Assembly (NCBI GenBank): GCA_003248845.1
Contig: QFPD01000012.1
Coordinates: 1 to 15,249 of the forward strand
DNA length: 15,249 bases
Direction of reading: 5' to 3'
From: Microbacterium sp.
GTDB taxonomy: Bacteria > Actinomycetota > Actinomycetes > Actinomycetales > Microbacteriaceae
The number at the start of each line of letters is the position of its first letter. Within the stretch, counting starts at the first letter, position 1. The notes below the pieces were generated by a model, which worked only from the letters and a program-made list of their open reading frames with translations, was not told where the DNA came from and searched no databases. A program made the translations under genes and the position numbers. Shown in pieces: positions 1,583 through 15,249 of this stretch.

Positions 1583-2400
1583 TGATGACGGATGCCGCGC
1601 GGCAAGCGGCGCGCGACGTGCAGGCGAGTCCGCTGGTGCGCGCGCTCGCGCGCGCCGGTTATGCCGCGAGCGGGGTCGTCCACGTGCTGATCGGCCTTCT
1701 CGTGCTTTCGCTCGCGTTCGGCGGATCGGGTGAGGCCGACCAGCCCGGTGCCCTGAGGGCGATCGCGGGCGCACCCCTCGGCCTTCTCGCCCTGTGGATC
1801 ATCACGGTGGTCCTCGGCGCTCTCGCCCTGTACCACCTCGTCGAGGGAGTTGTGCTGAGAAGCGGGCCCGGCGCGAAGGGGAGCGCGAAGGCGTGGGGGC
1901 GACGGTTGTCGGAACTGGGCCAAGGGGTGATCTTCGGCGCCCTGGGAGCGGTCGCGGCATCGGCCGCACTCGGCGCGCACCTGAACGGGAACGAAACCGC
2001 CAAGGCGGCGAGCCGCGGCGTCCTGTCGTTGCCGGGTGGACCGGTTCTCCTCGGCGCCGTCGGCCTCGGCGTGGCGGGCGGCGGGGTCGCGTTCGGGGTG
2101 ATGGGCATGCTGCGATCCTTCGAGAAGAAGATGACGATCCCCCGCGACGGTCTCGGACCGTTCGTGAAAGGTCTCGGTGTGGTGGGCTACCTGGCGAAGG
2201 GAGTGGCCCTGACGATCGTGGGGGTGCTGCTCGTGATCGCCGCGGTGACCGCCGACCCGTCGCAGGCGGGTGGCCTGGATGCCGCCTTCGATGCCTTGCA
2301 CGCCGTCACCCTGGGGCCCGTGATCGTCGCCGCCGTCGGCGTGGGGTTCGTCGCGTACGGAGTGTTCCTCTTCTTCCGCGCGCGCTACGCACGTCTCTGA
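1579..2400 (+). CDS. DUF1206-domain membrane protein with three repeats
   Basis: A 273-residue integral membrane protein of unknown function. It is built from three DUF1206-like units, each two hydrophobic helices introduced by a Gly-Tyr or Gly-Gln turn: GYAASGVVHVLIG (28-40), GQGVIFGALGAV (115-126) and GYLAKGVALTIVG (203-215). Between helix pairs lie short basic loops such as LRSFEKKM (178-185), and DPSQAGGLDAAFDAL (226-240) is typical of the third repeat. The gene overlaps the upstream transporter stop as GTGA. The GTG at 1579 has GAGGA (1565-1569) nine bases ahead; ATG 1582 or 1585 are equally possible starts. Co-transcription suggests a membrane role shared with the transporter, but none is established for this family. 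Confidence 0.85.
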   Translation: MMMTDAARQAARDVQASPLVRALARAGYAASGVVHVLIGLLVLSLAFGGSGEADQPGALRAIAGAPLGLLALWIITVVLGALALYHLVEGVVLRSGPGAKGSAKAWGRRLSELGQGVIFGALGAVAASAALGAHLNGNETAKAASRGVLSLPGGPVLLGAVGLGVAGGGVAFGVMGMLRSFEKKMTIPRDGLGPFVKGLGVVGYLAKGVALTIVGVLLVIAAVTADPSQAGGLDAAFDALHAVTLGPVIVAAVGVGFVAYGVFLFFRARYARL

Positions 2401-2417
2401 CGCGCGTCGGCCACCGA

Positions 2418-3500
2418 TCAGGCGGACGGCGCCGAGACGGGCGCCGTCTGCGCCGATGCCAGCGCGTTCAGGGCTCGGATGAGGCGGTGCAGCCCACCCA
2501 CACGGAACTGATTCATCTGCAGCATGATCCGCGGGAGGTCGAGTCGGTCGCCGTCGCGGCGCTCGGCGGGGAGGGGCGCGGTCGTCGTGATGCGCCCGGA
2601 GTCGTCGTCGCCGGGGAGGACGAGGTCGCCGAAGCGCTCGTTGAGCTCGGCGATCTCGGACGCGGTCGGCTCGTGCCGCAGACGCAGCACGAGCCTCCCC
2701 TTGACCCAGCGGAGCGAGTCGTAGTTCCGGTAGAACCCCGTGATCTCGGCGACGGCGGCATCCACCGAGTCGGTCACGAGCACGCGATCGAGGTCGTCCG
2801 GCGAGATCACGCCGGTCGGGATGAGCTGCTCGGTCGCGAAGCGTATCAAGCCGGCCCAGAAGGTGCCGCCAGGGCGGTCCAGGAGCACGATCGGCGTCGG
2901 ATCGGCTTTTCCCGTCTGCTGCAGGGTGAGCAGCTCGAACATCTCGTCGAGCGTTCCGAACCCGCCGGGCACGCAGATGAACGCGCGCGACTCCTTCACG
3001 AGCATGAGTTTCCGTGTGAAGAAGTACTTCATCGCGACCGAACGCGAGTTCTTCGCGATGACCGCGTTCGGCTTCTCCTCGAAGGGCAGCCGGATGCTCA
3101 CGCCGAGCGAGTGCTCCGGCCCGGCGCCCTCCGCCGCTGCCTGCATGATGCCGGGGCCGGCGCCGGTCACGACCATCCAGCCGCGTTCGGCGAGCGCCCG
3201 GGCCGCCGCCGACGCCGCACGGTACAACTCGTCGTCGGGTCGTGTGCGAGCGGATCCGAAGATCGTGACCTTCGGCACGCGCCGGTACGGTGCGAACAGT
3301 CCGAAGGCCGCGCGCATCTCGCTGAGCGCCGCGGAGGTGATCTTCAGGTCGAGCCGGTCGGTGTCGTCGAGACCGAGGCCCACACCGGTCGCGAGGATGC
3401 GTGCGACGAGGTCTCGATCGGTCTCGATACCGGCATCCTCGAGGAGGCGACGCAGGTCAGCAGTGACGTCGGAAGGGACCGGGGTGGAGCTCGGGGTCAT
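2418..3500 (-). CDS. LOG-family (TIGR00730-like) nucleotide-binding protein, probable nucleoside-monophosphate phosphoribohydrolase
   Basis: A 360-residue soluble Rossmann-type protein. Its core has the family's blocks in order: TIFGSART (79-86), VTGAGPGIMQAA (111-122), a central Arg/Lys region around FFTRKLMLVKE (160-170), and PGGFGTLDEMFE (178-189), the PGGxGTxxE motif that holds catalytic Arg/Glu chemistry in LOG proteins. Family members hydrolyse nucleoside 5'-monophosphates, and plant LOG and some bacterial homologues activate cytokinin nucleotides. This protein is longer than the roughly 190-residue classic LOGs, with about 75 extra N-terminal and over 100 extra C-terminal residues, so it is nearer to the long housekeeping type. 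Cytokinin production therefore cannot be claimed. The ATG at 3500 is preceded by CAGGGT plus six bases, a weak leaderless-type promoter; GGGTGGG there could instead be a poor ribosome site. Confidence 0.82.
   Translation of the reverse strand: MTPSSTPVPSDVTADLRRLLEDAGIETDRDLVARILATGVGLGLDDTDRLDLKITSAALSEMRAAFGLFAPYRRVPKVTIFGSARTRPDDELYRAASAAARALAERGWMVVTGAGPGIMQAAAEGAGPEHSLGVSIRLPFEEKPNAVIAKNSRSVAMKYFFTRKLMLVKESRAFICVPGGFGTLDEMFELLTLQQTGKADPTPIVLLDRPGGTFWAGLIRFATEQLIPTGVISPDDLDRVLVTDSVDAAVAEITGFYRNYDSLRWVKGRLVLRLRHEPTASEIAELNERFGDLVLPGDDDSGRITTTAPLPAERRDGDRLDLPRIMLQMNQFRVGGLHRLIRALNALASAQTAPVSAPSA
2422..2451. terminator. Possible hairpin terminator between convergent genes
   Basis: A stem of nine perfect pairs, GACGGCGCC (2425-2433) with GGCGCCGTC (2440-2448), around a six-base loop. 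It extends to 12 pairs with one G-U. It lies 22 bases after the DUF1206 stop and inside the last codons of the convergent LOG gene. There is no T-run on either side, so it may be a factor-independent terminator of the U-less kind proposed for actinobacteria, or only coding-sequence structure. Confidence 0.35.
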
Positions 3501-3506
3501 ACGCCC

Positions 3507-3512
3507 ACCCTG
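3507..3512 (-). promoter_or_regulatory. Weak -10-like box before the LOG-family gene
   Basis: On the minus strand CAGGGT (3512-3507) sits six bases ahead of the ATG at 3500. It keeps the A at position 2 and T at position 6 of TANNNT but not the first T. The geometry matches the stronger boxes in the window. Alone it would not be called. Confidence 0.25.
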
Positions 3513-3600
3513 TCACGCTCGGGTGAACGGCGCGTGCACGCGCGGATCGCCGCTTGTCAATCCCCTGCCCGCGACGGTCCTGTGCTGAGAGTGTCGACGC

Positions 3601-4104
3601 ATGACCGAGATCACCGGAACCGAAGCCCTTGCCCGTGTCAAGGAACTCGTCGAGGACATCGACTTCACGATGCTCACGACCGAGGACGACGACGGGCACC
3701 TCGTGAGCCGCCCGATGTCGACGAGGGAGATGGATGCCGCGGGCGACATCTGGTTCTTCACATCGGAGGACACGGAGAAGGTCGACGAGGCCCGCACGCA
3801 TCGCGATGTGGGACTGTCCTACTGCGACGCGAAGGGCATGCGGTACGTCTCGGTGGCCGGGACGGCCTCGATCGTCCACGACAAGGGGAAGATGGCCGAG
3901 CTCTACTCCCCCTCCCTCGATGTCTGGTTCGAGGACGGTCTCGAGACGCCCGGGATCGTCCTCCTGAAGGTGACGCCGAAGGTGACCGAGTTCTGGGAGC
4001 CGTCGAAGGGCAAGATCGCGATGGCGGCGGGCATGCTGAAGGCGCTCGTGTCCAAGGACACGCCCGACGACGACATCGTGAATCACGGCAAGATCACCTG
4101 CTGA
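3601..4104 (+). CDS. Pyridoxamine 5'-phosphate oxidase-fold protein, general stress protein 26 type
   Basis: A 167-residue protein with the split-barrel flavin-binding fold. Recognisable blocks are the first strand with DFTMLTTEDDDGHLVSRPM (21-39), DIWFFTSEDTEK (49-60), YVSVAGTASIVHD (82-94) and the late VTEFWE (128-133) near an acidic-basic tail. This layout is that of the general stress protein 26 group rather than PdxH itself, which is longer and ends in a different signature. Members bind FMN, FAD or F420, and most have no assigned substrate. The ATG at 3601 lacks a good Shine-Dalgarno; GAGTGT (3589-3594) lies six bases before it as a weak -10 candidate. The gene is divergent from the LOG-family gene and convergent with DUF1622. 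Function beyond the fold is unknown. Confidence 0.82.
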   Translation: MTEITGTEALARVKELVEDIDFTMLTTEDDDGHLVSRPMSTREMDAAGDIWFFTSEDTEKVDEARTHRDVGLSYCDAKGMRYVSVAGTASIVHDKGKMAELYSPSLDVWFEDGLETPGIVLLKVTPKVTEFWEPSKGKIAMAAGMLKALVSKDTPDDDIVNHGKITC

Positions 4105-4139
4105 GATCCGCGCCCACCCGCACGACGAGGGATTCGACC

Positions 4140-4553
4140 TCAGCGCGCGTCGCGGGACGCCGCGCGGTCGCGCGCGATCTGCTCTCCGAACACCTGACCG
4201 CCGCTCGTCAGGAGCGCCCGTCGCCACGGCAGGACCCCGTCGATCTCGATCTGGATCGACATCGACAGGACCGTCCGGATCAGCACGATGAGGCCGAGGA
4301 TCACGGCATCCTCGAGCGACGGTTTGGAGGTGATCGTTCGGATGAGATCGGCCGCGACGAGCACCTCGAGCCCCAGGAGGATCGCCGCGCCGAGCGTGGT
4401 GCGGAGCGTCTGGAAGGCAGCCTGCCCGCCATCGCCGCGCCGCAGCGATCGGACGCCGAGGACGACGGCGACAACGAACCCGACGCACATCGCGAACGCG
4501 CCGATCACCTCGAACACGACCGCGACGGTCGTGAACACCGGCTCGATGTGCAT
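4140..4553 (-). CDS. DUF1622-family small membrane protein
   Basis: A 137-residue protein with three predicted membrane helices: about 8-34 (TTVAVVFEVIGAFAMCVGFV region), 53-73 (TLGAAILLGLEVLVAADLIRT) and 82-100 (DAVILGLIVLIRTVLSMSI). The Arg-x-x-Leu-Gly-x-x-Ile-Leu-Leu-Gly-Leu-Glu block and the later Ile-Arg-Thr-x-Leu-Ser are characteristic of DUF1622, a family with no known biochemical role. The ATG at 4553 is well supported by a TAGGCT box that ends six bases upstream. The gene has its own promoter and follows proS on the same strand after a gap of 60 bases. The C-terminal tail is charged and probably cytosolic. Confidence 0.8.
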   Translation of the reverse strand: MHIEPVFTTVAVVFEVIGAFAMCVGFVVAVVLGVRSLRRGDGGQAAFQTLRTTLGAAILLGLEVLVAADLIRTITSKPSLEDAVILGLIVLIRTVLSMSIQIEIDGVLPWRRALLTSGGQVFGEQIARDRAASRDAR

Positions 4554-4559
4554 GCCCCC

Positions 4560-4565
4560 AGCCTA
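4560..4565 (-). promoter_or_regulatory. -10 box TAGGCT of the DUF1622 gene (leaderless geometry)
   Basis: On the minus strand TAGGCT (4565-4560), then GGGGGC, then ATG at 4553. The hexamer is a full TANNNT match with a six-base discriminator, so the mRNA should begin at or within a base of the start codon. The G-run could also be read as a ribosome site but touches the ATG too closely to work well. No -35 is evident. Confidence 0.5.
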
Positions 4566-4584
4566 GGCCCGCGGGCGCGTTGCA

Positions 4585-4613
4585 CGCCGGACGGAACAGC
4601 GGGCATTCCGGCG
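4585..4613 (-). terminator. Possible weak terminator hairpin after proS
   Basis: CGCCGGA (4585-4591) pairs with TCCGGCG (4607-4613) around a 15-base loop, immediately after the proS stop. A competing shorter stem, CGGAA (4592-4596) with TTCCG (4606-4610), uses part of the same bases. There is no T-tract in the downstream minus-strand sequence, so this is only a structural candidate. Confidence 0.25.
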
Positions 4614-6380
4614 TCAGCGCGCGCGGAGCCGCTCCACGACCTCGGATGCCGGCACGACCTCGCGCTCGCCCGAGCGGCGATCCCAGAGTTCGACCTCGCC
4701 GTCGGCGGCGCCGCGACCGACGATCACGATTTGCGGTACGCCCACGAGCTCGGCGTCGCCGAACTTCACGCCCGGCGACACCTTCGGACGGTCGTCGTAC
4801 AGCACGTCGAAGCCGGCAGCATCCAGCTCGTCCGACAGCGACGCCGACAGCGCGAACGCGGCCTCGTCACGGCCCGTCGCCACGACCTGCACATCGAACG
4901 GGGCGACCGATGCCGGCCAGATGAGGCCCTTCTCGTCGTTGTTGAGCTCCGCGATGATCGCGAGGATCCGCGTCACACCGATTCCGTACGACCCCATCGT
5001 GACCGTGACGAGCTTGCCGTTCTCATCGAGCACCTTGAGCCCGAGGGCCTCGGCGTACTTGCGTCCGAGCTGGAAGACGTGGCCGATCTCCATGCCGCGC
5101 GCGAGGGTCACGGGGCCCGAGCCGTCGGGCGCCGGGTCGCCCTCGCGGACGGTCGCGATCTCGACGACCCCGTCGCCGAAGAAGTCGCGCCCGGCGACGA
5201 GCGAGTGCACGTGCTTCTGGTCGATGTTGGCGCCGGTGATCCACGCGGTGCCGTCCACGACGCGCGGGTCGAGAAGATAGCGGATGCCGGTCGCCGACTC
5301 CTCCCCGAGGATCGCGCCCTCCGGGGACCACGGTCCGATGTACCCCTTGACGAGCAGCGGGTTCTTCTCGAAGTCGTCGGCGGTGGCGGGCTGGACTTCG
5401 GCGGGAGCGAACGCGACCTCAGCGCGCTTGTCATCGACGTCGCGATCGCCAGGGATGCCGACGATCACGAGCTCGCGCGTTCCGTCGAGATGCGTCAGCG
5501 CCAGGACGACGTTCTTCAGAGTGTCGGCGGCCGTGTACTCCCCCGCCGACGTGTCGAGCGCCGCGTTCGCGTGCGTCACGAGCGTCTCGATCGTCGGGGT
5601 GTTGGGGGAATCGAAGATCACGGGCTGCACCTCGTCGTCGAAGGGCACCGCGTCGGGGACGGGAGTCGAGTACGCCTCGACGTTCGCGGCGTACCCGCCC
5701 GCCGAACGCACGAAGGTGTCCTCGCCGACGGGGGTCGGGTGCAGGAACTCCTCCGACTTCGACCCTCCCATCGCCCCGGCGTCTGCCTGGACGATGACGT
5801 ATTCGAGACCGAGACGCTGGAAGATGCGCTCGTAGGCGTCGCGCTGCGCCTGGTACGAGGCATCCAGCCCCGCATCGGAGGCGTCAAAGGAGTACGCGTC
5901 CTTCATCGTGAATTCGCGGCCGCGCAGAAGGCCCGCGCGGGGGCGAGCCTCATCGCGGTACTTGTCCTGGATCTGGTAGAGCGTGACCGGCAGGTCCTTG
6001 TACGAGGAGTACAGGTCCTTCACGAGGAGCGTGAAAGCCTCTTCGTGCGTGGGGGCGAGCAGGTAGTCACCGGCCTTGCGGTCTTGGAGGCGGAACAGCA
6101 GATCGCCGTACTCCTCCCAGCGCCCCGTCGCCTCGTATGCCTCCCGCGGCATCAGTGCGGGGAAGTGCACTTCCTGCGCACCAGCGGCGGCCATCTCCTC
6201 ACGCACGACCTTCTCGATCCGCGCCTTGACGCGCAGGCCCAGCGGCAGCCACGCGAAGATCCCCGCCGCCTGCGGCCGGATGTACCCGGCGCGGATGAGC
6301 AGTTTGTGGCTCGCGACCTCGGCCTGAGCCGGGTCTTCGCGGAGCGTGCGGAGGAAGAAGTTCGACAGACGGGTGACCAC
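4614..6380 (-). CDS. proS: Prolyl-tRNA synthetase (bacterial type with editing insertion)
   Basis: ProRS charges tRNA-Pro with proline in the cytoplasm. The 588-residue length and domain order fit the bacterial class II enzyme. It opens [20 protein letters not shown]. The Thr-His-Glu-Glu active-site block is at 111-114, motif 2 with [25 protein letters not shown] spans about 141-165, a YbaK-like editing insertion fills roughly 230-400, motif 3 GSYGIGVTR is at 463-471, and the anticodon-binding domain runs from about 495 to the end. The GTG at 6380 is chosen because the family N-terminus begins right there; the frame stays open far upstream but carries no homologous sequence. No Shine-Dalgarno precedes it. 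A TAAGCT box lies eight bases upstream, overlapping the stop of the lipoprotein gene 11 bases away. Confidence 0.96.
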
Positions 6381-6388
6381 GAGGGTCA

Positions 6389-6394
6389 AGCTTA
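6389..6394 (-). promoter_or_regulatory. Possible internal promoter -10 of proS, overlapping the upstream stop codon
   Basis: On the minus strand TAAGCT (6394-6389) is a TANNNT match. Its first three bases are the TAA stop of the lipoprotein gene. It is followed by eight bases and the proS GTG. The spacing is slightly longer than the six bases seen elsewhere. If active, proS would have its own leaderless transcript as well as read-through from the lipoprotein gene. Confidence 0.35.
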
Positions 6395-7438
6395 GCCGCG
6401 CGCCGCGGCGTCCTTTCCGGCGATGACGGACAGGACGCCCAGTGCGGTGTCGACGACGCTCACCCCCGCGAGGCGCTGGCCCTGCAGGTGAAGGATGTTC
6501 ACGCCGTCGGAGAGATACACCTCGCCCTTCGACGTCACCCGCGCCGGGTGACCGCCGACCGTGGCGTCGACCGAGTCGGGGATGCTCGCGGCGAGGGTCT
6601 TCCACGCCCAGGCGCCGTTCGGCACGGCAATGACGCTGAAGTCGGAGCCGCGGTCGCCGTCCTGCGTCGGCGTGCGTGCCCAGTCGCACCGCGCGATCGT
6701 CGACGACGCGATCGAAAGCCGGGTGTCGACCGAGGATGCCGCGGGCGGAGCGAGCGCCGTGCGCGCCTCGTCCGATCCGAGCAGCGACGTCACGCCGATC
6801 GTCTCGGCGATCGCGGTGCAGTCGAGCGGATTGCTCCAGGTCGTCGGACGCGACTTGGCGGGCTGCCCCTCGGTCGCCGATTGTGCGACGGCGGTGGCGA
6901 TGGCGGTCAGCTCGGCGAGCGCGGACGGGTCGTCGACAGAGGTCGGGAAGGATGCCGCGGCGAGCACTGTCTGCCCCGCTCCCGGAGCCGACGCGTGGCA
7001 CTCCATGGACCCCGTGCCGCGATCGCACGCCGCGCTCCCTGCGAGGGTCGCGACGTCGCCCACGACGGTCGCGGCGGGCAGGACGTAGACATCCACCGCC
7101 AGGCGCGGCGTGAGCAGCGAGCACGCCAGGCCCCCCGCCGTGTCGATCCCGATGTGCCACATCTCGTCGAGCGTCGTGGCGCGCTGGATCTCACCCGCGG
7201 CCGCTGTGACGGCCGGAGCGGCCCCGAGCGCCGCGCAGCCGCCGGCGACGGGAGACGTGGGCGTGAGCGGCGCAGGTGTTCCGGACGGCGACGGGGTGGG
7301 CGAGGCCGTGGGAGTGGCCGACGGCGACGCGGGATCTGCCTCTGCGGCGCCTGTGCACCCGGCGAGAATGCCGGTGAGGAGGATCAGCGAGGCCAGTGCC
7401 ACCGGGACGGACGCGGACTTCGACCTCGTAACGCTCAC
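6392..7438 (-). CDS. Secreted lipoprotein with Pro/Ser/Thr-rich linker and two similar Cys-containing halves, function unknown
   Basis: A 348-residue exported protein. The N-terminus has basic residues, a hydrophobic stretch (11-26) and the lipobox Leu-Ala-Gly-Cys with Cys28, so lipid attachment at the outer face of the membrane is expected. A linker rich in Pro, Ser, Thr and Ala (about 31-65) follows. The remainder looks like two related units: Cys68 to Cys106 and Cys207 to Cys251, each ending near a Val-rich strand (VDVYVLPAA, 115-123; [12 protein letters not shown], 268-279). Cys138 and Cys147 form an extra pair in the first unit. No named family was recognised. The GTG start at 7438 follows a TAGCAT box by six bases, predicting a leaderless mRNA. 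The gene precedes proS by 11 bases and is divergent from the ribonuclease gene. Confidence 0.75.
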
Positions 7439-7444
7439 CGCAGA

Positions 7445-7450
7445 ATGCTA
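7445..7450 (-). promoter_or_regulatory. -10 box TAGCAT of the lipoprotein gene (leaderless geometry)
   Basis: On the minus strand TAGCAT (7450-7445), six bases, then GTG at 7438. It is a full TANNNT match. There is no purine-rich ribosome site between box and start, so a leaderless transcript is the simplest reading. Confidence 0.55.
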
Positions 7451-7510
7451 ACGGGCCGAATCTGTGCCCGCGATGTGCGCGGACAGCGACTGGCCGTGGC
7501 GGGTGCGACC

Positions 7511-7516
7511 TACACT
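7511..7516 (+). promoter_or_regulatory. -10 box TACACT of the RNB ribonuclease gene (leaderless geometry)
   Basis: TACACT (7511-7516), then GACCCC, then GTG at 7523. It is a full TANNNT match with a six-base discriminator and no Shine-Dalgarno. It lies within an 84-base divergent region shared with the lipoprotein promoter. Confidence 0.55.
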
Positions 7517-7522
7517 GACCCC

Positions 7523-9002
7523 GTGTCGCACCGTCGCCCTCGCATCGTTCCTACGCCGGCGCGCGGCGCACTCGCCGCCTCGCTCATCGAGCTGCGGAGA
7601 TCACTCGATCTTCCCGACGCCTACCCCGCGGACGCGCAGGCCGAAGCGGACGCCGCCGCGCGTGACATCCCCGTCGATCCGGGCGCCGCTGCGCTCCCCG
7701 ATCTGCGCGACATCGACTTCCTCACGATCGACCCGGCCGGTTCCACCGACCTCGATCAGGCGCTGCATCTCGAACGCACCGCGACGGGTGCCGTCCTGCA
7801 TTACGCGATCGCCGACGTGCCCGCGTACGTCTCGCCGGGCGGACCGTTGGATGCCGAGACGCGGCGTCGCGGTCAGACGATGTATGCCCCCGACACGCGA
7901 ATTCCCCTGCATCCGCCGGTTCTCAGTGAGGGTGCGGCATCGCTTCTGCCCGGTGTCGACCGGCGTGCATTCGTCTGGCGGTTCGAGCTCGACGATGGCG
8001 CACGGCCCACGCGGGTGACAGTGACGCGGGCGATCGTGCGCTCGCGCGCACAGTGGTCATACGACGACGCGCAGCGCGCGATCGAGGCCGGCGACGCGCC
8101 GGGGAGTCTCCTCCATGCCATGGTTCGGCGCCGAGCGCGCGTCGCGAGAACGCGAACGCGGCGGGGCGAGTCTCAACATCCCCGAGGCCCGAATCCTGGC
8201 GGTCAGCACTGCCGAGGGTGACGGCTACACGATCGAGCGCAGCTACGGCGTTCCGCTGGAGGACTGGAACGCGCACGTGTCACTTCTCACCGGCATGGCC
8301 GCGGCCGACATCATGATCGCCGGCGGCGTGGGGATCCTCCGCACGATGCCGCCCGCCGACCCCGATGACGTCGCCGCCTTCCGCGCGCAGACGGTCGCCC
8401 TCGGCATCCCGTGGCACGCGGACGTCGCCTACGGCGACTATCTGCGCGGTCTCGACCGCTCCCCCGCGGCGCGGGCCGTCAAGGAGTACGCCGCCGGTCT
8501 GTTCCGCGGCGCCGGCTACGTCGCGTTCGACGGCGAGGTGCCCGTCGAACGCGCGCAGGCGGCGATCGGAGCCCCGTACGCGCATGCGACGGCGCCGCTC
8601 CGGCGCCTCGTCGACCGCTGGGCGCTCGTCGTGTGCGAAGCGCTCGCGAACGGTCGGGAGGTGCCGGACTGGGCGCGCTCGTCGCTGCCGGAGCTTCCCG
8701 CCCTCATGTCCCGCTCGTCCCAGAAGGCCGCGCAGCTGGATGCCGGCGCGCTCGATCGCGTCGAAGCGGCCCTGCTGCGGGGCCGCGAGGGCGAGGTCTT
8801 CACCGGTGTGGTGCTCGCCCAGCGCGGAGACCGTGCGCGCGTGCAGATCGCCGATCCGCCGGTGGAGGCGAAGGTGCCCGGTGTGGATGCCGCGCCGGGG
8901 AGCACCGTGCGGCTTCGGCTGGTCGCGGCATCCATCGCCGACGGCACCGTCGCTTTCGCGCCAATCGCGGCAGAGTCTTCCTCAGAACAGAAAGTTCACT
9001 GA
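7523..9002 (+). pseudogene. RNB-domain (RNase II/R family) ribonuclease, split by a +1 frameshift near 8111-8120
   Basis: RNB enzymes degrade RNA processively from the 3' end. Frame 1, from GTG 7523, carries the metal-binding motif IDPAGSTDLDQALHL with Asp70, Asp76 and Asp78; the fourth family Asp is Gln here, as I recall for this actinobacterial group. Good similarity stops at about SLL (to 8113), and that frame then runs nonsensically to a stop at 8219-8221. The rest resumes one base later: PWFGAERASRERERGGASLNIPE from 8118, and YAHATAPLRRLVDRWAL, which carries the conserved catalytic-site Arg. It ends at 9002. Removing one base gives 492 residues, a normal length. The cause may be a real indel, a sequencing error or, less likely, two polypeptides: ATG 8115 has GGGGAG (8101-8106) eight bases upstream and would start a 295-residue C-terminal piece. 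Confidence 0.8.
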
Positions 9003-9009
9003 AATTCAC
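8995..9009 (+). promoter_or_regulatory. AT-rich repeat element upstream of aceA, possible regulator site
   Basis: TTCAC occurs at 8995-8999 and again at 9005-9009, ten bases apart (one helical turn). The second copy forms part of the imperfect palindrome TGAAATTCA (9000-9008). The patch is unusually AT-rich for this region and lies about 105 bases before the aceA start, at the end of the ribonuclease gene. The glyoxylate-shunt genes of actinobacteria are controlled by carbon-source regulators, but I do not recognise this as a specific consensus. Between 9010 and 9113 no clear -10/-35 pair was found. Confidence 0.25.
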
Positions 9010-9113
9010 ACGTCGGATCGTCGGAAGAGCATCGGTTCTTGGCGCACAGTGGTGTCAACGCCCACCGCTTCACCGCAGACGCGACAGCGGACGACCACGA
9101 CGAAGGACAGACA

Positions 9114-10706
9114 ATGACTGCCTACACCGACGCCATCGAGGCGATCACGGCTCTGAAGGAACAGAACGGACCGGCCTGGGACGCCATCAACCCCGAATAC
9201 GTCGCCCGCATGCGCCTCCAGAACCGGTTCAAGACGGGCCTCGAGATCGCTCAGTACACCGCCGACATCATGCGTCGCGACATGGCCGAGTACGACGCCG
9301 ACTCGTCGGTCTACACGCAGTCGCTCGGCGTATGGCACGGCTTCATCGGGCAGCAGAAGCTGATCTCGATCAAGAAGCACTTGAAGTCGACGAACAAACG
9401 CTACCTGTACCTCTCCGGCTGGATGGTCGCGGCCCTGCGGAGCGAGTTCGGCCCGCTCCCCGACCAGTCGATGCACGAGAAGACAGCGGTTCCGGCCCTC
9501 ATCGCCGAGCTGTACACCTTCCTCCGCCAGGCCGACACGCGCGAGCTCGACCTGCTCTTCACGAAGCTCGATGACGCGCGCGCCGCGGGCGATGAGACCG
9601 CCGTGGAGTTCATCCAGTCGCAGATCGACAACCACGAGACCCACGTCGTTCCGATCATCGCCGACATCGACGCCGGCTTCGGCAACCCCGAGGCGACCTA
9701 CCTGCTCGCCAAGAAGATGATCGAGGCGGGCGCGTGCGCCATCCAGATCGAGAACCAGGTCTCCGACGAGAAGCAGTGCGGCCACCAGGACGGCAAGGTC
9801 ACCGTGCCGCACGAGGACTTCCTCGCGAAGATCAACGCCGTGCGGTACGCCTTTCTCGAGCTCGGCATCGACAACGGCGTAATCGTCGCCCGCACCGACT
9901 CGCTGGGCGCCGGCCTCACGCAGAAGATCGCCGTCTCCCAGACGCCGGGCGACCTCGGCGACCAGTACAACGCCTTCCTCGACGTCGAGGAGATCTCGGC
10001 CGACGCGCTGAGCGACGGCGACGTCGTGATCCGCCGCGAGGGGAAGCTCCTGCGACCCAAGCGCCTGGCATCGAACCTCTACCAGTTCCGCTCCGGTACC
10101 GGCGAGGCCCGCTGCGTGCTCGACTGCATCACCTCGTTGCAGAACGGCGCCGACCTGCTCTGGATCGAGACCGAGAAGCCGCACGTCGCGCAGATCGCCG
10201 GGATGGTCGACGAGATCCGCAAGGTGATCCCGAACGCAAAGCTCGTCTACAACAACAGCCCGTCGTTCAACTGGACGCTGAACTTCCGCCAGCAGGCGTA
10301 CGACGCCCTCGTGGAGCAGGGCGCGGACGTCTCCGCCTACGACCGCGCGGACCTCATGAACGTGTCGTACGACGACACCGAGCTCGCCCGCCTCGCCGAC
10401 GAGAAGATCCGCTCGTTCCAGAAGGACGGCTCGGCCCGTGCCGGCATCTTCCACCACCTCATCACCCTGCCGACCTACCACACGGCCGCCCTGTCGACGG
10501 ATGACCTCGCGAAGGGCTACTTCGGTGACGAGGGAATGCTGGCCTACGTCAAGGGCGTGCAGCGCCGCGAGATCCGCGAGGGGATTGCGACCGTGAAGCA
10601 CCAGAACATGGCCGGCAGCGACATCGGCGACAACCACAAGGAGTACTTCGCCGGGGATGCCGCCCTGAAGGCCGGCGGCGCGCACAACACGATGAACCAG
10701 TTCTGA
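9114..10706 (+). CDS. aceA: Isocitrate lyase, long (about 530-residue) form
   Basis: Isocitrate lyase splits isocitrate into succinate and glyoxylate, the first step of the glyoxylate shunt that allows growth on acetate or fatty acids. The 530-residue product has the catalytic block DEKQCGHQDGK with nucleophile Cys222 and His224; this long subclass has Lys-Gln-Cys where the short form has Lys-Lys-Cys. Other blocks are IIADIDAGFGNPE, VARTDSLGAGLT, NNSPSFNWTLNF and the C-terminal HQNMAGSDIGD. The ATG at 9114 follows a good Shine-Dalgarno, GAAGGA (9102-9107), with six bases of spacing, so this gene has a leader. The sequence closely resembles the Pseudomonas-type enzyme rather than the roughly 430-residue mycobacterial ICL1. 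No malate synthase gene is in the window. A strong terminator follows. Confidence 0.96.
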   Translation: MTAYTDAIEAITALKEQNGPAWDAINPEYVARMRLQNRFKTGLEIAQYTADIMRRDMAEYDADSSVYTQSLGVWHGFIGQQKLISIKKHLKSTNKRYLYLSGWMVAALRSEFGPLPDQSMHEKTAVPALIAELYTFLRQADTRELDLLFTKLDDARAAGDETAVEFIQSQIDNHETHVVPIIADIDAGFGNPEATYLLAKKMIEAGACAIQIENQVSDEKQCGHQDGKVTVPHEDFLAKINAVRYAFLELGIDNGVIVARTDSLGAGLTQKIAVSQTPGDLGDQYNAFLDVEEISADALSDGDVVIRREGKLLRPKRLASNLYQFRSGTGEARCVLDCITSLQNGADLLWIETEKPHVAQIAGMVDEIRKVIPNAKLVYNNSPSFNWTLNFRQQAYDALVEQGADVSAYDRADLMNVSYDDTELARLADEKIRSFQKDGSARAGIFHHLITLPTYHTAALSTDDLAKGYFGDEGMLAYVKGVQRREIREGIATVKHQNMAGSDIGDNHKEYFAGDAALKAGGAHNTMNQF

Positions 10707-10732
10707 CGCGCATCCCGCGCCTTACACATCAC

Positions 10733-10769
10733 AGAAGGGCCCCGCTGCGGCGGGGCCCTTCTCGTTGTT
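10733..10769 (+). terminator. Strong intrinsic terminator of aceA
   Basis: A perfect 13-base-pair stem, AGAAGGGCCCCGC (10733-10745) with GCGGGGCCCTTCT (10750-10762), closed by the tetraloop TGCG. It is followed by CTCGTTGTT as a partial T-tract. It begins 26 bases after the aceA stop and separates aceA from the regulator gene downstream. Confidence 0.92.
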
Positions 10770-10787
10770 CAGCCAACCGGATAAGCG

Positions 10788-10801
10788 TGCGATATATTGC
10801 A
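10788..10801 (+). promoter_or_regulatory. Promoter -10 and overlapping palindromic operator of the gntR-acdS operon
   Basis: TATATT (10793-10798) is a full TANNNT match, and seven bases later comes the GTG at 10806. The box sits inside the palindrome TGCGATATATTGCA (10788-10801), which has six of seven base pairs symmetric. An AT-rich palindrome over a -10 is exceptional in this GC-rich sequence and is the natural place for the downstream GntR protein to repress its own operon. The binding itself is inferred. Confidence 0.5.
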
Positions 10802-10805
10802 TACT

Positions 10806-11492
10806 GTGCCCCTGCCTCCAAACCCGCTCCCGCGCAATCTGCTGCGCGAGGACGTCCACACGCAGCTGAGGAACGCCATCGTCGACGGCACCCTTGCCCC
10901 CGGCGAGCAGCTTCGCGACGGAGACCTCGCCGCGCGCCTCGGCGTCAGCCGTACACCCGTTCGCGAGGCGCTGCTCGAACTCGCGCGGGCAGGACTCGTC
11001 CGCGCCGTCCCCGGCCGCTCCACGGTCGTCGCACCGATCGACCCGGCAGCCGTCCGCGACGCGCAGGCCGTCGTGGCGGCGATGCACGCGCTTGCTGTCC
11101 GGGTGGCGGTGCCGCACCTGACGGCATCCGATCTCGACGAGATGCGCGCCGCGAACGCGGACTTCGCCGCCGCACAGCGGCGCGGCGACCTCGACGGAGC
11201 GATGGATGCCGACGCTCGCTTCCACGCGGTACCCGTCGCGCGATCGGGCAACACCGCGGCGGCCGGTGTGCTGGCGCAGTACGAACCGGTTCTTCGGCGC
11301 GCGGAGAGGCTGCGCTTCGCCTCGCACGAAGGCGCCGCATCGGCCGAGCGGCATGAGCGTCTCATCGACCTGTGCGCCGACGGCGACCCCGAGGGCGCCG
11401 CCGCGCTGGCTGCCGAGATCTGGCAGACCCTGCCGTCCGCGAGTCCCACCCCCGCACTCCCCTCCGCCCCCTTCGAAAAGGACACCCCATGA
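10806..11492 (+). CDS. GntR-family transcriptional regulator (FadR/FCD subfamily), probable regulator of acdS
   Basis: A 228-residue cytoplasmic DNA-binding protein. The N-terminal winged helix (about 10-76) has the GntR signature: [24 protein letters not shown], then [20 protein letters not shown] (40-59). The C-terminal region is an FCD-type ligand domain with the pattern Asp-x-x-Phe-His followed by Ser-Gly-Asn ([14 protein letters not shown]) and a later His in [11 protein letters not shown], residues that usually bind a metal and an organic acid. GTG 10806 is preferred because the -10 box predicts transcription starting there; TTG 10797 would add three residues but lies inside the -10 box and lacks a ribosome site. 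The stop overlaps the acdS start as ATGA, so this regulator and acdS form one operon. The effector is unknown; ACC or a related amino or keto acid is a guess. Confidence 0.85.
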
Positions 11493-12517
11493 AGCTGCAC
11501 GAGTTCGCCCGCTACCCGCTGACGTTCGGCCCGAGCCCGCTGCAGCGGCTCGACCGCCTCTCCGACCACCTGGGCGGAGCGCGCATCTGGGCCAAGCGCG
11601 AAGACGTCAACAGCGGTCTCGCCTTCGGCGGCAACAAGGTGCGAAAGCTCGAGTACATCGTCCCGGACGTCCTCGCGTCAGGCGCCGACACGATCGTCTC
11701 GATCGGCGGATACCAGTCGAATCACACGCGCCAGGTCGCCGCCGTCGCAGCCCACCTCGGCCTCAAGGCCCGCCTCGTGCAGGAGAAGTGGGTGCCGTGG
11801 GAGGACGCCACGAACGACAAGGTCGGCAACATCCTGCTCTCTCGCATGATGGGCGCCGACTCGCGCCTCGACGACGCCGGATTCGACATCGGCATCCGCG
11901 ACTCGTGGAAGCAGGCTCTGGAAGAGGTCGAAGCGGCGGGCGGCACCCCGTACCCGATCCCGGCCGGGGCGAGCGAGCACCGGCTCGGCGGACTCGGCTT
12001 CGCGAACTGGGCGTTCGAGGTCGCCGAGCAGGAGAAGCAACTGGGCGTCTTCTTCGACACGATCGTCGTGTGCACCGTCACGGGATCGACCCATGCCGGC
12101 ATGATCGCCGGTTTCGCGGCGCTCGAGGAGCTCACCGGCATCAAGCGTCGGGTCCTCGGAATCGACGCGTCGGCCACTCTCGAGAAGACCCGAGACCAGG
12201 TGGCCCGCATCGCGCGGCACACGGCCGAGCTCATCGAGCTCGGCCGTGACCTGCGCGACGACGAGATCCAGGTGCTCGAGGGCTGGGCGGGCGAGCTCTA
12301 CGGCATCCCGGTGGACTCGACGATGGAGGCGATGGCGCTCGGCGCTCAGCTGGAGGCGATGATCACCGACCCCGTGTACGAAGGCAAGTCGCTCGCGGGA
12401 CTCATCGATCTCGTGCGCTCCGGCGACATCTCGAAAGACTCCACAGTCCTCTACGCGCACCTCGGCGGGCAGCCCGCGATCAACGCGTACCACTCCCTGT
12501 GGGACCCGTCGGCGTGA
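11489..12517 (+). CDS. acdS: 1-aminocyclopropane-1-carboxylate (ACC) deaminase
   Basis: AcdS is a PLP enzyme that cleaves ACC, the precursor of plant ethylene, to 2-oxobutyrate and ammonia in the cytoplasm. The 342 residues align end to end with the roughly 338-residue Pseudomonas enzyme from memory. [13 protein letters not shown] places the PLP lysine at Lys50, [12 protein letters not shown] gives Ser77, and DPVYEGKS gives Tyr297 and Glu298. LYAHLGG gives Leu325. Glu and Leu at the last two sites are the pair that separates true ACC deaminases from D-cysteine desulfhydrase-like homologues. The ATG at 11489 has AAAAGGA (11476-11482) six bases upstream and overlaps the regulator's stop as ATGA. 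Nitrogen scavenging or lowering of plant ethylene are possible roles. It is convergent with ispG. Confidence 0.93.
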
Positions 12518-12550
12518 TCGCGCGGAGTCTCGTCCGCCTCGGAGGCCGCG

Positions 12551-13702
12551 TCAGGCCGTGACGACCTGCGCGGTGCCGAGCGGCGCGTCGGGGCCCATCT
12601 CGGCGGCGAGGCGGTTCGCCTCTTCGATGAGCGTCGCGACGATCTCGGCCTCGGGCACGGTCTTGATGACCTCGCCCTTCACGAAGATCTGACCTTTGCC
12701 GTTGCCGGATGCCACGCCGAGGTCCGCCTCGCGGGCTTCACCGGGGCCGTTCACGACGCACCCCATGACGGCGACGCGCAGCGGCACGGTCATGTCCTTG
12801 AGGCCCTCGGTCACGTTGTCGGCGAGCGTGTAGACGTCGACCTGCGCACGCCCGCACGACGGGCACGAGACGATCTCGAGCTTGCGCTCGCGCAGGTTCA
12901 GCGACTGCAGGATCTGGTGCCCGACCTTGACCTCTTCGGCGGGCGGCGCGGAGAGCGAGACGCGGATCGTGTCGCCGATGCCCTCCGACAGCAGGATGCC
13001 GAACGCGGTCGCGCTCTTGATCGTTCCCTGGAAGGCGGGGCCCGCCTCGGTCACACCGAGGTGCAGCGGCCAGTCGCCGCGTTCGGCGAGCAGGCGGTAG
13101 GCCTTCACCATGACGACGGGGTCGTTGTGCTTGACCGAGATCTTGAAGTCGTGGAAGTCGTGCTCCTCGAAGAGGGAGGCCTCCCAGACGGCGCTCTCGA
13201 CGAGCGCCTCCGGGGTCGCCTTGCCGTACTTCTCGAGCAGGCGCTTGTCGAGGGATCCGGCGTTCACACCGATGCGGAGGGACACGCCGGCATCCTTCGC
13301 CGCCTTCGCGATGGCGCCGACGTTGCCGTCGAACTCGCGGATGTTGCCGGGGTTCACGCGCACGGCGCCGCACCCGGCGTCGATCGCCTGATAGATGTAC
13401 TTCGGCTGGAAGTGGATGTCGGCGATCACCGGGATCTGGCTCTTCTTCGCGATGATGTGGAGCACATCGGCGTCTTCGGGCCGGGGCACGGCGACGCGGA
13501 CGATCTCGCAGCCGGACGCCGTGAGCTCGGCGATCTGCTGCAGCGTCGCGTTGATGTTGTGCGTGGGTGTCGTCGTCATCGACTGGACGCTCACGGGCGA
13601 GTCGCTGCCGACTCCGACCGAACCGACCTTGATCTGACGGGTCTTGCGGCGGGGGGCGAGGACTTCCGGCACGCGGGGCATCCCGAGGTTCACTGCTGGC
13701 AC
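12551..13702 (-). CDS. ispG: 4-hydroxy-3-methylbut-2-en-1-yl diphosphate synthase (IspG/GcpE)
   Basis: IspG makes HMBPP from MEcPP in the non-mevalonate isoprenoid pathway, using a [4Fe-4S] cluster. The 383-residue protein has the TIM-barrel part with [13 protein letters not shown] (38-49), [28 protein letters not shown] and [16 protein letters not shown]. The cluster-binding part has Cys280 and Cys283 in SCPSCGR, Cys315 in [10 protein letters not shown], and Glu322. All expected ligands are present. The GTG at 13702 lacks a ribosome site but lies exactly six bases after TAGGCT, indicating a leaderless mRNA. The neighbours are unrelated in pathway: acdS converges on it and the trp leader diverges from it. 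The gene stands alone in this window. Confidence 0.97.
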
Positions 13703-13708
13703 GAGATC

Positions 13709-13714
13709 AGCCTA
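13709..13714 (-). promoter_or_regulatory. -10 box TAGGCT of ispG (leaderless geometry)
   Basis: On the minus strand TAGGCT (13714-13709), then GATCTC, then GTG at 13702. It is a full TANNNT match with a six-base discriminator, identical in sequence to the box of the DUF1622 gene. No -35 is obvious. Confidence 0.6.
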
Positions 13715-13777
13715 CGCCGGGTCGGGGGCGCGAAGGCTGAGGATGCCGCGGGGAAGATGAGGGCTCGCCGCTTCTGA

Positions 13778-13783
13778 TATCGT
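13778..13783 (+). promoter_or_regulatory. -10 box TATCGT of the trp leader (leaderless geometry)
   Basis: TATCGT (13778-13783), then GACGGC, then the ATG of the leader peptide at 13790. It is a full TANNNT match. The nearest purine-rich stretch (13749-13763) is too far upstream to serve as a ribosome site, so the leader peptide is probably translated from the very 5' end of the mRNA. Confidence 0.6.
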
Positions 13784-13789
13784 GACGGC

Positions 13790-13825
13790 ATGTTCGCGAG
13801 CACCTCCTGGTGGCCCACCCGCTGA
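13790..13825 (+). CDS. trpL: Tryptophan-operon leader peptide (11 residues, tandem Trp)
   Basis: A short open frame encoding MFASTSWWPTR, with two consecutive Trp codons at 13808-13813. The stop at 13823-13825 is directly followed by the antiterminator strand. When charged tRNA-Trp is scarce, a ribosome would stall at these codons. The start lies six bases behind a -10 box. The peptide itself probably has no function beyond sensing. The pairing scheme around it and the TrpE-like gene downstream make chance occurrence very unlikely. Confidence 0.88.
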   Translation: MFASTSWWPTR

Positions 13826-13887
13826 GGCGGTGTGCTCGCAACCCTGACACAGACCGCCCCGCACTCCACCGGGCGGTCTTCTCGTTT
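13796..13887 (+). promoter_or_regulatory. Transcription attenuator of the trp gene (three alternative hairpins)
   Basis: Four segments pair in mutually exclusive ways. Segment 1:2 (anti-antiterminator) is GCGAGCAC (13796-13803) with GTGCTCGC (13832-13839), eight perfect pairs with the Trp codons in its loop. Segment 2:3 (antiterminator) is GGCGGT (13826-13831) with ACCGCC (13853-13858), extended by GTG (13832-13834) with CAC (13848-13850) across a two-base bulge. Segment 3:4 (terminator) is AGACCGCCC (13851-13859) with GGGCGGTCT (13871-13879). A ribosome stalled on the Trp codons would mask segment 1, freeing segment 2 to disrupt the terminator, the classical attenuation logic. All pairings were checked base by base. 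Confidence 0.9.
13851..13887 (+). terminator. Attenuator terminator hairpin (3:4)
   Basis: A perfect nine-base-pair stem, AGACCGCCC / GGGCGGTCT, with an 11-base loop. It is followed by TCTCGTTT as a weak T-tract, the same style of tail as the aceA terminator. It ends about 40 bases before the start of the synthase gene. Confidence 0.88.
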
Positions 13888-13927
13888 CGCGATGAGGCAG
13901 CCCGCCTGAACGACAGAAAGGCCCGGC

Positions 13928-15249
13928 ATGCCCGACGCCCTCGACGACGCGATCTCCTCCGGTCGCCCCTTCGCCCTCCTGGCCCGTGACGGCGAGACCG
14001 TCGAGGTTCTGACCGGAGATGTCACCGACGTCGCCCTCCTCGCCGACATCCCACTGCACGACGCAAGCGGTACCGCGCGCGAAGTCCTCGCCCTCGTGCC
14101 GTACCGCCAGATCGTCGAGCGCGGCTTCGCCTGCCACGATGACGAGGCTCCGCTGCGCTGCCTCGTGATCGACACGCACGAGCGCCTCGCGCGGGATGCC
14201 GCGATCGCGGCACTCCCGGACGCTCCGATCCCGCTCGACGATGCCGAGTTCGACATCACCGATGCCGACTACGCCGATATCGTACGGACCGTCATCGCCG
14301 ACGAGATCGGCCGTGGCGAGGGCGCGAACTTCGTGATCCGGCGCGATTACACGGCATCCGTCGATGGTGACGCGCTGACCGCGGGGCTCACGTGGTTCCG
14401 CGCTCTCCTCGAGCATGAACGCGGCGCCTACTGGACCTTCCTCGTCTCGACGCCGGGCCACCTCACGGTCGGCGCGAGCCCCGAGGCGCACGTGAGCGCG
14501 CAGGCAGGGGTCGTCACGATGAACCCCATCTCGGGCACCTTCCGCCACCCCGCCGGCGGCGCGACGGCCGCGAGCCTCACCGAGTTCCTCTCGTCGACGA
14601 AGGAGACCGAGGAGCTCTTCATGGTCGTCGACGAGGAGCTCAAGATGATGAGCGCCGTCTGCAGCGACGGCGGCCGGATCACCGGGCCGCACCTCAAAGA
14701 GATGTCTCGCCTCACGCACACCGAGTACATGTTGCGCGGCCACAGCATGATGGACCCTCGCGACATCCTGCGTGAGACGATGTTCGCGCCCACGGTCACC
14801 GGGTCGCCGATGCAGAACGCCTGCACCGTCATCCGACGGCACGAGAAGACGCCGCGCGGCTATTACTCCGGCGTCGCGGCACTGTTCACCCCCGCTGCGG
14901 GCGATACGCACGACCTCGATGCACCGATCCTCATCCGCACGGCATACCTCGAGGACGGTCGCCTGCGCGTGCCGGTCGGCGCGACGCTGGTGCGGCACTC
15001 CGACCCCGACGGCGAAGTGGGCGAGACCCACGGCAAGGCGGCGGGCGTCCTTGGCGCGATCGGGGCGATCGCCCGTGACGAGGCTGCCGAGCGGGCGGCG
15101 CTCGACGAGGATGCGCCGGCGCTCCCGAAGGCGTCGCTCGCCGACGATCCCGCAGTGGCGACCCTGCTGGCTGCTCGAAACGAACGGCTCGCGCCGTTCT
15201 GGCTCAACCCGCAGAACACGCGCGCTGACGATGACGTCGCCCTCGCGCC
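13928..15249 (+). CDS. trpE: Anthranilate synthase component I, TrpEG/PhzE-type (5' part, truncated by the window edge)
   Basis: This chorismate-using enzyme makes anthranilate, the first committed step to tryptophan. The 440 visible codons show the chorismate-binding fold: NFVIRRDY near 136-143, SPEAHVS, MNPISGTFR (198-206), a helical ELFMVVDEELKMMSAVC block, LTHTEYMLRGH with the family's conserved His, GSPMQNACTVI (292-302) and the PRGYYSGVAALF signature (309-320). The short N-terminus and this version of the motifs resemble the fused TrpEG/PhzE group, in which a glutamine amidotransferase domain follows; that part would lie beyond the window. PhzE relatives make aminodeoxyisochorismate for phenazines instead, but the Trp attenuator upstream argues for tryptophan synthesis. 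The ATG at 13928 has GAAAGG (13916-13921) six bases ahead, a normal ribosome site. Confidence 0.88.
   Translation, partial: MPDALDDAISSGRPFALLARDGETVEVLTGDVTDVALLADIPLHDASGTAREVLALVPYRQIVERGFACHDDEAPLRCLVIDTHERLARDAAIAALPDAPIPLDDAEFDITDADYADIVRTVIADEIGRGEGANFVIRRDYTASVDGDALTAGLTWFRALLEHERGAYWTFLVSTPGHLTVGASPEAHVSAQAGVVTMNPISGTFRHPAGGATAASLTEFLSSTKETEELFMVVDEELKMMSAVCSDGGRITGPHLKEMSRLTHTEYMLRGHSMMDPRDILRETMFAPTVTGSPMQNACTVIRRHEKTPRGYYSGVAALFTPAAGDTHDLDAPILIRTAYLEDGRLRVPVGATLVRHSDPDGEVGETHGKAAGVLGAIGAIARDEAAERAALDEDAPALPKASLADDPAVATLLAARNERLAPFWLNPQNTRADDDVALA

Follow-up and report, generated by a model that had tools for sequence, protein, structure and literature searches.

The window, meaning the whole stretch of 15,249 bases (69.1% GC) analysed here from contig QFPD01000012.1 of Microbacterium sp., encodes ordinary chromosomal functions and is densely marked by a short word, the heptamer GGATGCC, which is the subject of this study. 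A scan of the genes identified a DUF1206 protein, a lysine-decarboxylase-like (SLOG) protein, a pyridoxamine-oxidase-like protein, a class II tRNA synthetase with an editing domain (probably ProS), an RNase II-type C-terminal part, isocitrate lyase, a GntR regulator, a pyridoxal phosphate enzyme, and a GcpE/IspG protein. Comparison of the window with a plasmid collection added little; the matches listed (20 of 28) fall in the isocitrate lyase, IspG, or tRNA synthetase region.

Over-representation of the heptamer was reported in a preliminary description of this DNA, and our recount agrees with it: GGATGCC occurs 17 times and its reverse complement GGCATCC 12 times, and 26 of these 29 heptamers are extended to the octamer GGATGCCG/CGGCATCC. 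Dinucleotide shuffles of the window, the basis on which excess was assessed for all copies listed below, give an expectation of 3.61 heptamers (standard deviation (sd) 1.93, largest 10) and 1.71 octamers (sd 1.37, largest 7), and none of 200 shuffles matches either observed count. The positions given previously were correct for 28 copies; the one placed at 5860 actually starts at 5859. Based on the word count, the copies of GGATGCC are located as follows, those marked as octamers being extended to GGATGCCG:

1590..1596, plus strand, octamer
2277..2283, plus strand, octamer
2757..2763, minus strand, octamer
3432..3438, minus strand, octamer
3732..3738, plus strand, octamer
4305..4311, minus strand, octamer
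4644..4650, plus strand, octamer
5282..5288, plus strand, octamer
5453..5459, plus strand, octamer
5859..5865, minus strand, heptamer only
6734..6740, plus strand, octamer
6950..6956, plus strand, octamer
7849..7855, plus strand, octamer
8403..8409, minus strand, octamer
8738..8744, plus strand, octamer
8885..8891, plus strand, octamer
8927..8933, minus strand, octamer
10655..10661, plus strand, octamer, close to the end of the isocitrate lyase gene
11123..11129, minus strand, octamer
11204..11210, plus strand, octamer
11891..11897, minus strand, octamer
12302..12308, minus strand, octamer
12707..12713, plus strand, heptamer only
12994..13000, plus strand, octamer
13289..13295, minus strand, octamer
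13677..13683, minus strand, heptamer only
13741..13747, plus strand, octamer
14194..14200, plus strand, octamer
14353..14359, minus strand, octamer

Inside the called genes of the window there are 28 heptamers against 7.8 expected (sd 2.2, maximum 12) under a synonymous-codon null, in which codons are shuffled within genes with protein and codon usage kept; a corrected gene model gives 27 against 7.1 (sd 1.4, maximum 10). The copies had been described as lying mostly in frame as Asp-Ala or Ala-Ser, which is the case for 20 of the 28 genic copies (13 as Asp-Ala, G GAT GCC; seven as Ala-Ser, G GCA TCC); seven others are Gly-Ile (GGC ATC C). A depletion of GGACGCC had also been claimed, and is not borne out for the window (11 against 9.4 expected, and 10 against 12.9 in genes on the codon null). 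An RNase II/RNB-type gene at 6488-9002 (plus strand) appears to be split over two frames, one ending at 8221 and the other starting at 8115, and the end of the latter matches RNase_II_C_S1; this would be a frameshift or sequencing error.

Genome-wide excess and form of the word

GGATGCC (often as CGGATGCCG) is a genome-wide, lineage-specific word of double-stranded DNA in most sampled Microbacterium and in many other members of the Microbacteriaceae. The closest named relative of the window by isocitrate lyase is Microbacterium lacticum DSM 20427 (93%; locus L001, genome G001), the 3.1-Mb genome of which contains 2,237 octamers against 218 for the reversed pattern; 4,747 are present in Microbacterium sp. 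B35-30 (G151; 4.6 Mb), and 4,491 in another family genome of 3.4 Mb. The excess extends well beyond the window, with 71 of 150 family genomes having more than 300 octamers per Mb (range 27 to 1,321, median 289; all per-Mb densities are approximate, from rounded genome sizes), and G107 being the richest. Summed over the 150 genomes, the octamer occurs 89,047 times in forward and 88,719 times in reverse orientation. Class-wide, 13 of 296 genomes exceed 300 octamers per Mb (read off the table; G001 included), of which 10 recur in the family or genus lists and three (G361, G370, and G446) are unplaced. Seen across the class, the effect thus concentrates in the family Microbacteriaceae, and it varies inside the family.

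Among loci no longer than 21.6 kb, most of those from Microbacterium and four from Cryobacterium have more octamers than the dinucleotide null predicts; four Leucobacter loci and two Microbacterium records (L009, 1 against 1.6; the short L037, 1 against 0.4) show no rise. On the codon null, the four Cryobacterium loci have a heptamer excess (59 against 29), and there is none for Pseudomonas (114 against 120 over 19 loci) or Burkholderiales (70 against 86 over 14 loci). Several Pseudomonas loci appear three- to five-fold up for the octamer by the dinucleotide null; because those loci show no heptamer excess over the codon null, the dinucleotide null overstates. In 18 further 20-kb samples of rich genomes, the heptamer excess ranges from about two-fold (G087) to about six-fold (G396), two of the 20 stretches (338 and 1,028 bases) having been left out. 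An alignment of 17 isocitrate lyase loci indicates that copies turn over between species, and these copies are too few for modelling.

Measured against a third-order Markov model, GGATGCC ranks first among heptamers in 400-kb samples taken from G001 (591 against 128) and G107 (724 against 165); maximal-order Markov z-scores hide the signal because the sub-words carry it. In both genomes, most single substitutions at positions 1-7 bring the octamer to within two-fold of expectation, and recognition is therefore sharp; a few one-mismatch neighbours, such as GGATGTCG and GGATGCTG, exceed expectation two- to three-fold. G predominates at position 8, and C is favoured at position -1 in G107 (CGGATGCCG). 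In M. lacticum, A and T at position 8 are raised over expectation no less than G (GGATGCCA 99 against 12, GGATGCCT 138 against 16, and GGATGCCG 281 against 46), and this position is also relaxed in 20-kb samples of G058 and G345.

The excess survives the codon- and dipeptide-preserving null in the same 400-kb samples of two genomes (rather than in whole genomes): G107 has 670 genic heptamers where 200 (sd 12) are expected, and G001 has 511 where 150 (sd 8) are; the corrected gene model leaves these counts unchanged. Neither of the refuting outcomes named in the preliminary description, a count no higher than such a null or an excess limited to the window, was therefore observed in these samples. 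All six codon phases exceed the codon null in both genomes, some only slightly (e.g., 14 against 9.8), and intergenic DNA is likewise enriched (53 against 8.4 in G107, and 77 against 11.3 in G001). In G107, the sequence of which begins at dnaA, there are 342 sense and 328 antisense copies, and the leading and lagging strands carry 357 and 367 copies, respectively, though the GC skew changes sign; in this one genome tested, the non-polar reading proposed earlier is thus supported. GGACGCC, which is near expectation in the window, is depleted on the codon null in both relatives (114 against 313 in G001; 239 against 327 in G107). GGATGCC fills 190 of 333 Asp-Ala sites preceded by G in the G001 sample and 305 of 580 in that of G107.

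Of the perfect 9-bp hairpins in intergenic DNA, 4 of 63 in G107 and 6 of 62 in G001 have the word in each arm, and some word-bearing hairpins are followed by T-rich sequence and are terminator-like. Genes of G151 that are present in both of its relatives (see the next section) have 1.46 copies per kb (3.1 times the codon null), and those shared with the sister only have 1.21 per kb (2.5 times), a fall that continues to 0.66 per kb (2.2 times) in genes found only in G151. In G001, the genes with lowest GC content at third codon positions (GC3) are poorest in the word (0.46 per kb; genes <300 bases excluded). On G001 stretches L086, L087, L096, and L098, genes of 1,515 bp with equal GC3 occur in three places and genes of 1,284 bp in two; these repeated insertion sequence-like genes are probably mobile. 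The word is absent from them, which we rejected as evidence, the codon null expecting fewer than one copy in each.

Retention of the word and its dialects

Where a G precedes an Asp-Ala or Ala-Ser pair, the excess comes at the expense of every common synonymous spelling, including those that are two steps or a transversion away. In G001, G GAC GCC occurs 45 times against 165 expected and G GAC GCG 51 times against 174, in comparison with 190 against 35 for G GAT GCC. Single-step C-to-T conversion was consequently rejected as the main cause, since one-step and two-step synonymous spellings are depleted alike.

Close relatives suitable for following individual copies were sought from G107, for which none exceeded 85% among the matches listed, and were then found from G151. 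The resulting trio (G151, its sister G497, and the outgroup G499) comprises 159 kb aligned in three rows, with alignments <300 bases omitted and a sister identity of 93.4%; changes were assigned by parsimony, and expected rates were derived from the trinucleotide and the codon position. Losses of GGATGCC number 32 against 116 expected. No other heptamer among the 648 that had 60 or more ancestral copies has so low a ratio (0.275, against a median of 0.85); the second and third best-retained heptamers are shifted forms of GGATGCC. When 585 octamers are ranked by loss ratio, CGGATGCC is lowest (0.217) and GGATGCCG fourth (0.280), the two ranks in between being taken by ACGGATGC, which is a shifted form, and by an unrelated word with 40 copies. 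Losses fall under expectation at each of the seven positions. They are suppressed in noncoding DNA (6 against 16.6), in the sense Asp-Ala phase (10 against 46), and in the antisense Ala-Ser phase (3 against 26), and less so in the Gly-Ile phase (10 against 18.5).

Gains number 17 against 15.1 which, with a median word ratio of 0.74, amounts to an approximately 1.5-fold rise based on small numbers. The rise lies in GGACGCC to GGATGCC gains (10 against 3.6); the other one-step neighbours, with seven of the 17 gains, show none. The gain/loss ratio is about 4, some four to five times that of the median word, and accounts for a large part of the excess. The results do not fit a process that merely generates new copies. 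They fit a weak force, resembling selection or conversion, that acts on the whole word, with retention as the main origin of the excess. Copies in G151 are common to the outgroup at 186 of 250 sites, compared with 49-60% for four control words, and around conserved copies in this one trio identity is 97.2% inside the word and 93.2% in the flanks. As a separate observation on these genomes, an approximately 145-bp dispersed and partly tandem repeat (L129:10349-10495, in G151:C1, and its relatives) accounts for most of the matches listed in G497 (136 in total), G499, and G665.

Certain family members poor in GGATGCC have another word in its place. In genes, GCAGGATC numbers 93 against 20.8 in G048 and 124 against 18.7 in G088, with five codon phases out of six in excess in the former and all six in the latter; GGATGCC has no excess in the genes of either genome (49 against 64, and 58 against 64). 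Genome-wide, GCAGGATC reaches 538 per Mb in G048, 534 in G088, and 263 in G005, genomes in which GGATGCCG stands at 108, 148, and 143 per Mb, respectively; the other 147 of the 150 family genomes have at most about 214 GCAGGATC per Mb (read off the table). The core GGAT is common to GGATGCC and GCAGGATC. Other poor genomes, such as G052, have neither GGATGCC nor GCAGGATC in excess. GCGGATC of Leucobacter (218 against 90) was considered as a further dialect and rejected, as many other words score alike. The counts of CTGCTGC, CGAGCAG, GCGCAGC, and GCGGATC in G154 (Leucobacter chironomi) each exceed the codon null two- to three-fold, a broader context bias. In the genes of G088 (stretches L200-L203 and L218-L227), CGCAGGAGC occurs 75 times against 13 and GCAGGAGCC 64 times against 12; these are perhaps a second accepted spelling.

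A putative uptake tag and competing explanations

An excess in all phases and between genes, the lack of polarity, and the absence of RecC (found in none of 150 family genomes, with Escherichia coli as positive control) together make codon pairs, RNA-level signals, the FtsK-orienting polar sequences (KOPS), and a RecBCD-type Chi poor explanations for the word. An RNA-level signal as main cause was rejected on the excess in all phases, between genes, and in both orientations in the samples of G107 and G001; a polar motif of the type of KOPS or the architecture-imparting sequences (AIMS) on the lack of origin-to-terminus polarity in G107; and RecBCD Chi on the missing RecC and the lack of leading-strand bias in that genome. 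We posit an uptake-sequence-like role as the best of the explanations that can be named; it is unproven, and we favour it only tentatively. The force would be preferential uptake and recombination of word-carrying DNA in natural transformation, in which a putative cell-surface reader (a pilus, or a ComEA/ComEC-linked protein) would favour kin DNA bearing the word. Mutated copies would be restored via recombination with tagged DNA, or removed by selection, and tagged sequence would build up to a limit set by the proteins. Somewhat more doubtful is the fuller proposal of a Microbacteriaceae uptake-sequence system with at least two dialects (GGATGCC and GCAGGATC, with a GGAT core) that would confer kin-selective transformation in Gram-positive actinobacteria.

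To our knowledge, uptake sequences are known only from Neisseriaceae and Pasteurellaceae. The DNA uptake sequence (DUS) of the former occurs in both orientations and in hairpin pairs, and the uptake signal sequence (USS) of the latter is a short, dense, non-palindromic word. GGATGCC resembles the DUS in having thousands of copies in and between genes, strong conservation, and dialects of related taxa that share a core, and perhaps also in being richer in the core genome. In the respective papers, Neisseria DUS are described as far better conserved than the sequence around them and as most frequent in the core genome (PMC2397512), with dialects that have a core in common (PMC3630211); the USS is conserved like the DUS (PMC2397512), and differs from our word in sequence and in phylum. 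The Microbacteriaceae word also differs from the DUS in its length (7-9 bp), its Gram-positive high-GC host, the lack of a known ComP receptor, and an unproven effect on uptake. Moreover, in the excerpted account the flanks of DUS are more divergent (PMC2397512), whereas those of the Microbacteriaceae word are not, and gains of the latter are not clearly tied to recombination tracts. HIP1 of cyanobacteria (GCGATCGC) is also a highly iterated octamer with exceptional variants in some relatives, as excerpted from PMC4390886. However, HIP1 is palindromic and tied to methyltransferases, and GGATGCC is not its own reverse complement. Chi and KOPS/AIMS are likewise short over-represented words; they are polar with replication, and the Chi of E. 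coli is read by RecBCD, in contrast to the lack of polarity in G107 and of RecC in the family.

A number of findings weigh against an uptake tag. Spacing of the word is near random (coefficient of variation 0.98 and 1.12 in two sampled genomes), and known uptake sequences are described as evenly spaced in excerpts of PMC1939737. Sequence flanking the conserved copies shows no more divergence than the genome at large (identity 93.2% against 93.4%), and new copies do not clearly lie in import tracts: within 300 bp of 19 gains the derived-site ratio is 1.3-1.9, as compared with 1.35-1.55 around synonymous changes picked at random. In G001 there are 218 sense and 293 antisense copies, the codon null being skewed likewise. 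The drop in density in genes found only in G151 is based on nine copies, and low-GC3 genes of G107 are hardly poorer in the word (1.41 per kb). Certain phages also have an excess: Abigail and Clayda5 are about two-fold up for the heptamer and four-fold for the octamer, the small and temperate-looking Efeko (L126; 19 against 4.3) is the most enriched of six Microbacterium phages, and a phage of Arthrobacter is raised as well (9 against 4.3); the counts for Min1, SanaSana, and Quenya lie close to expectation.

Competence exists in the family, which speaks for uptake. ComEC is encoded in 148 of 150 family genomes and, being near universal, does not tell genomes rich in the word from poor ones. 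Matches to T2SSF pilus proteins are present in 146 of the 150; the four genomes without a match were entered as E = 1, the E-value classes were set by us, and genomes of at least 2 Mb were compared. Median octamers per Mb by best T2SSF E-value are 426 for <1e-25 ("PilC-like"; n = 75), 293 for 1e-25 to 1e-11 (n = 31), and 219 for weaker or no matches (n = 21), with p about 0.001-0.003 when kinship is ignored. The link of density with pilus genes is suggestive and weak. G044 and G116 attain about 618 octamers per Mb with weak T2SSF matches alone, and G107, the richest genome, has only a T2SSF match of Tad-like class; pilus presence was rejected as a necessary or sufficient condition based on exceptions of this kind. 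Rhodoluna and Aurantimicrobium (Microbacteriaceae) are reported as naturally transformable in excerpts of PMC11577799, and in those of PMC6370729 transformation of another actinobacterium, Micrococcus luteus, is served by Flp pili. Genomes <2 Mb, the size class of the transformable species in the former source, are poor in the word (read off the table), and in the literature searched we found no report of uptake, transformation, or a receptor for any Microbacterium; these points also count against an uptake role. No paper on the Microbacteriaceae word was found in that literature, papers merely containing its letters not having been gone through, and the excerpts of an octamer survey (PMC2843746) hold no mention of Microbacteriaceae.

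Other readers of the word can be envisaged. It could be a non-polar signal for recombination or self-recognition inside the cell, i.e., a Chi-like word for a helicase-nuclease of AdnAB/AddAB type, such that tagged ends are repaired and not degraded. A retained, lineage-specific 7-8-mer in both orientations would suit two-ended break repair, the retention is of the selection type, and phages are much poorer in the heptamer than the window (61 against 32.5 expected in the six Microbacterium phages pooled, four of which were sampled over 20 kb; 29 against 3.6 in the window). We nevertheless regard this as unlikely, given that the classical reader is absent, that G107 shows no leading-strand bias, and that GCAGGATC replaces the word in some family members. 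Slightly less likely is a site for a nucleoid-associated or chromosome-organising protein of high abundance, with selection acting on the global count of copies. The density of heptamers on both strands in G001 and G107 and the near-random spacing are consistent with such a site, as is the slightly greater density by eye in stretches of G107 near the origin; but there is neither even spacing nor a strand pattern, and like retention in coding and noncoding DNA is easier to explain by drive than by a structural role.

A bias of mutation or repair, by which methylation or context-dependent repair (e.g., NucS or Vsr-like) makes GGATGCC from GGACGCC or shields it, is improbable as the source of the excess. 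It would account for the raised GGACGCC to GGATGCC gains and the depletion of GGACGCC in the two relatives, and a protein covering the word could lower its mutation rate. However, spellings two steps or a transversion away (GAC GCG, GCC TCG) are depleted about equally with the one-step source, losses are below expectation at seven positions, other one-step neighbours have no extra gain, and a methylated cytosine is expected to speed loss. A codon-pair or dipeptide preference would agree with the in-frame placement of most genic copies in the window, and codon use alone accounts for the heptamer counts in Pseudomonas loci; it is refuted as main cause in G107 and G001 by the six-phase and intergenic excess, sense and antisense, and we consider it very improbable. 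With respect to the causes suggested in the preliminary description, codon-pair preference is not supported, and directed C-to-T change at GGACGCC is at most a part of the cause, the excess being kept mainly by suppressed loss at all seven positions. The option left standing is a binding site, taken broadly as a word that some protein reads.

If an uptake role is correct, sequence-selective gene exchange would have arisen independently in an actinobacterial family. Comparison of minor pilins and ComEA between GGATGCC and GCAGGATC genomes would then be a direct handle for finding the reader, and the word might aid genetic work in Microbacterium. The word can confound analyses of codon usage, methylation, and phylogeny. 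Even with a repair enzyme or a nucleoid protein as reader, the force acting on this word shapes codon use genome-wide.

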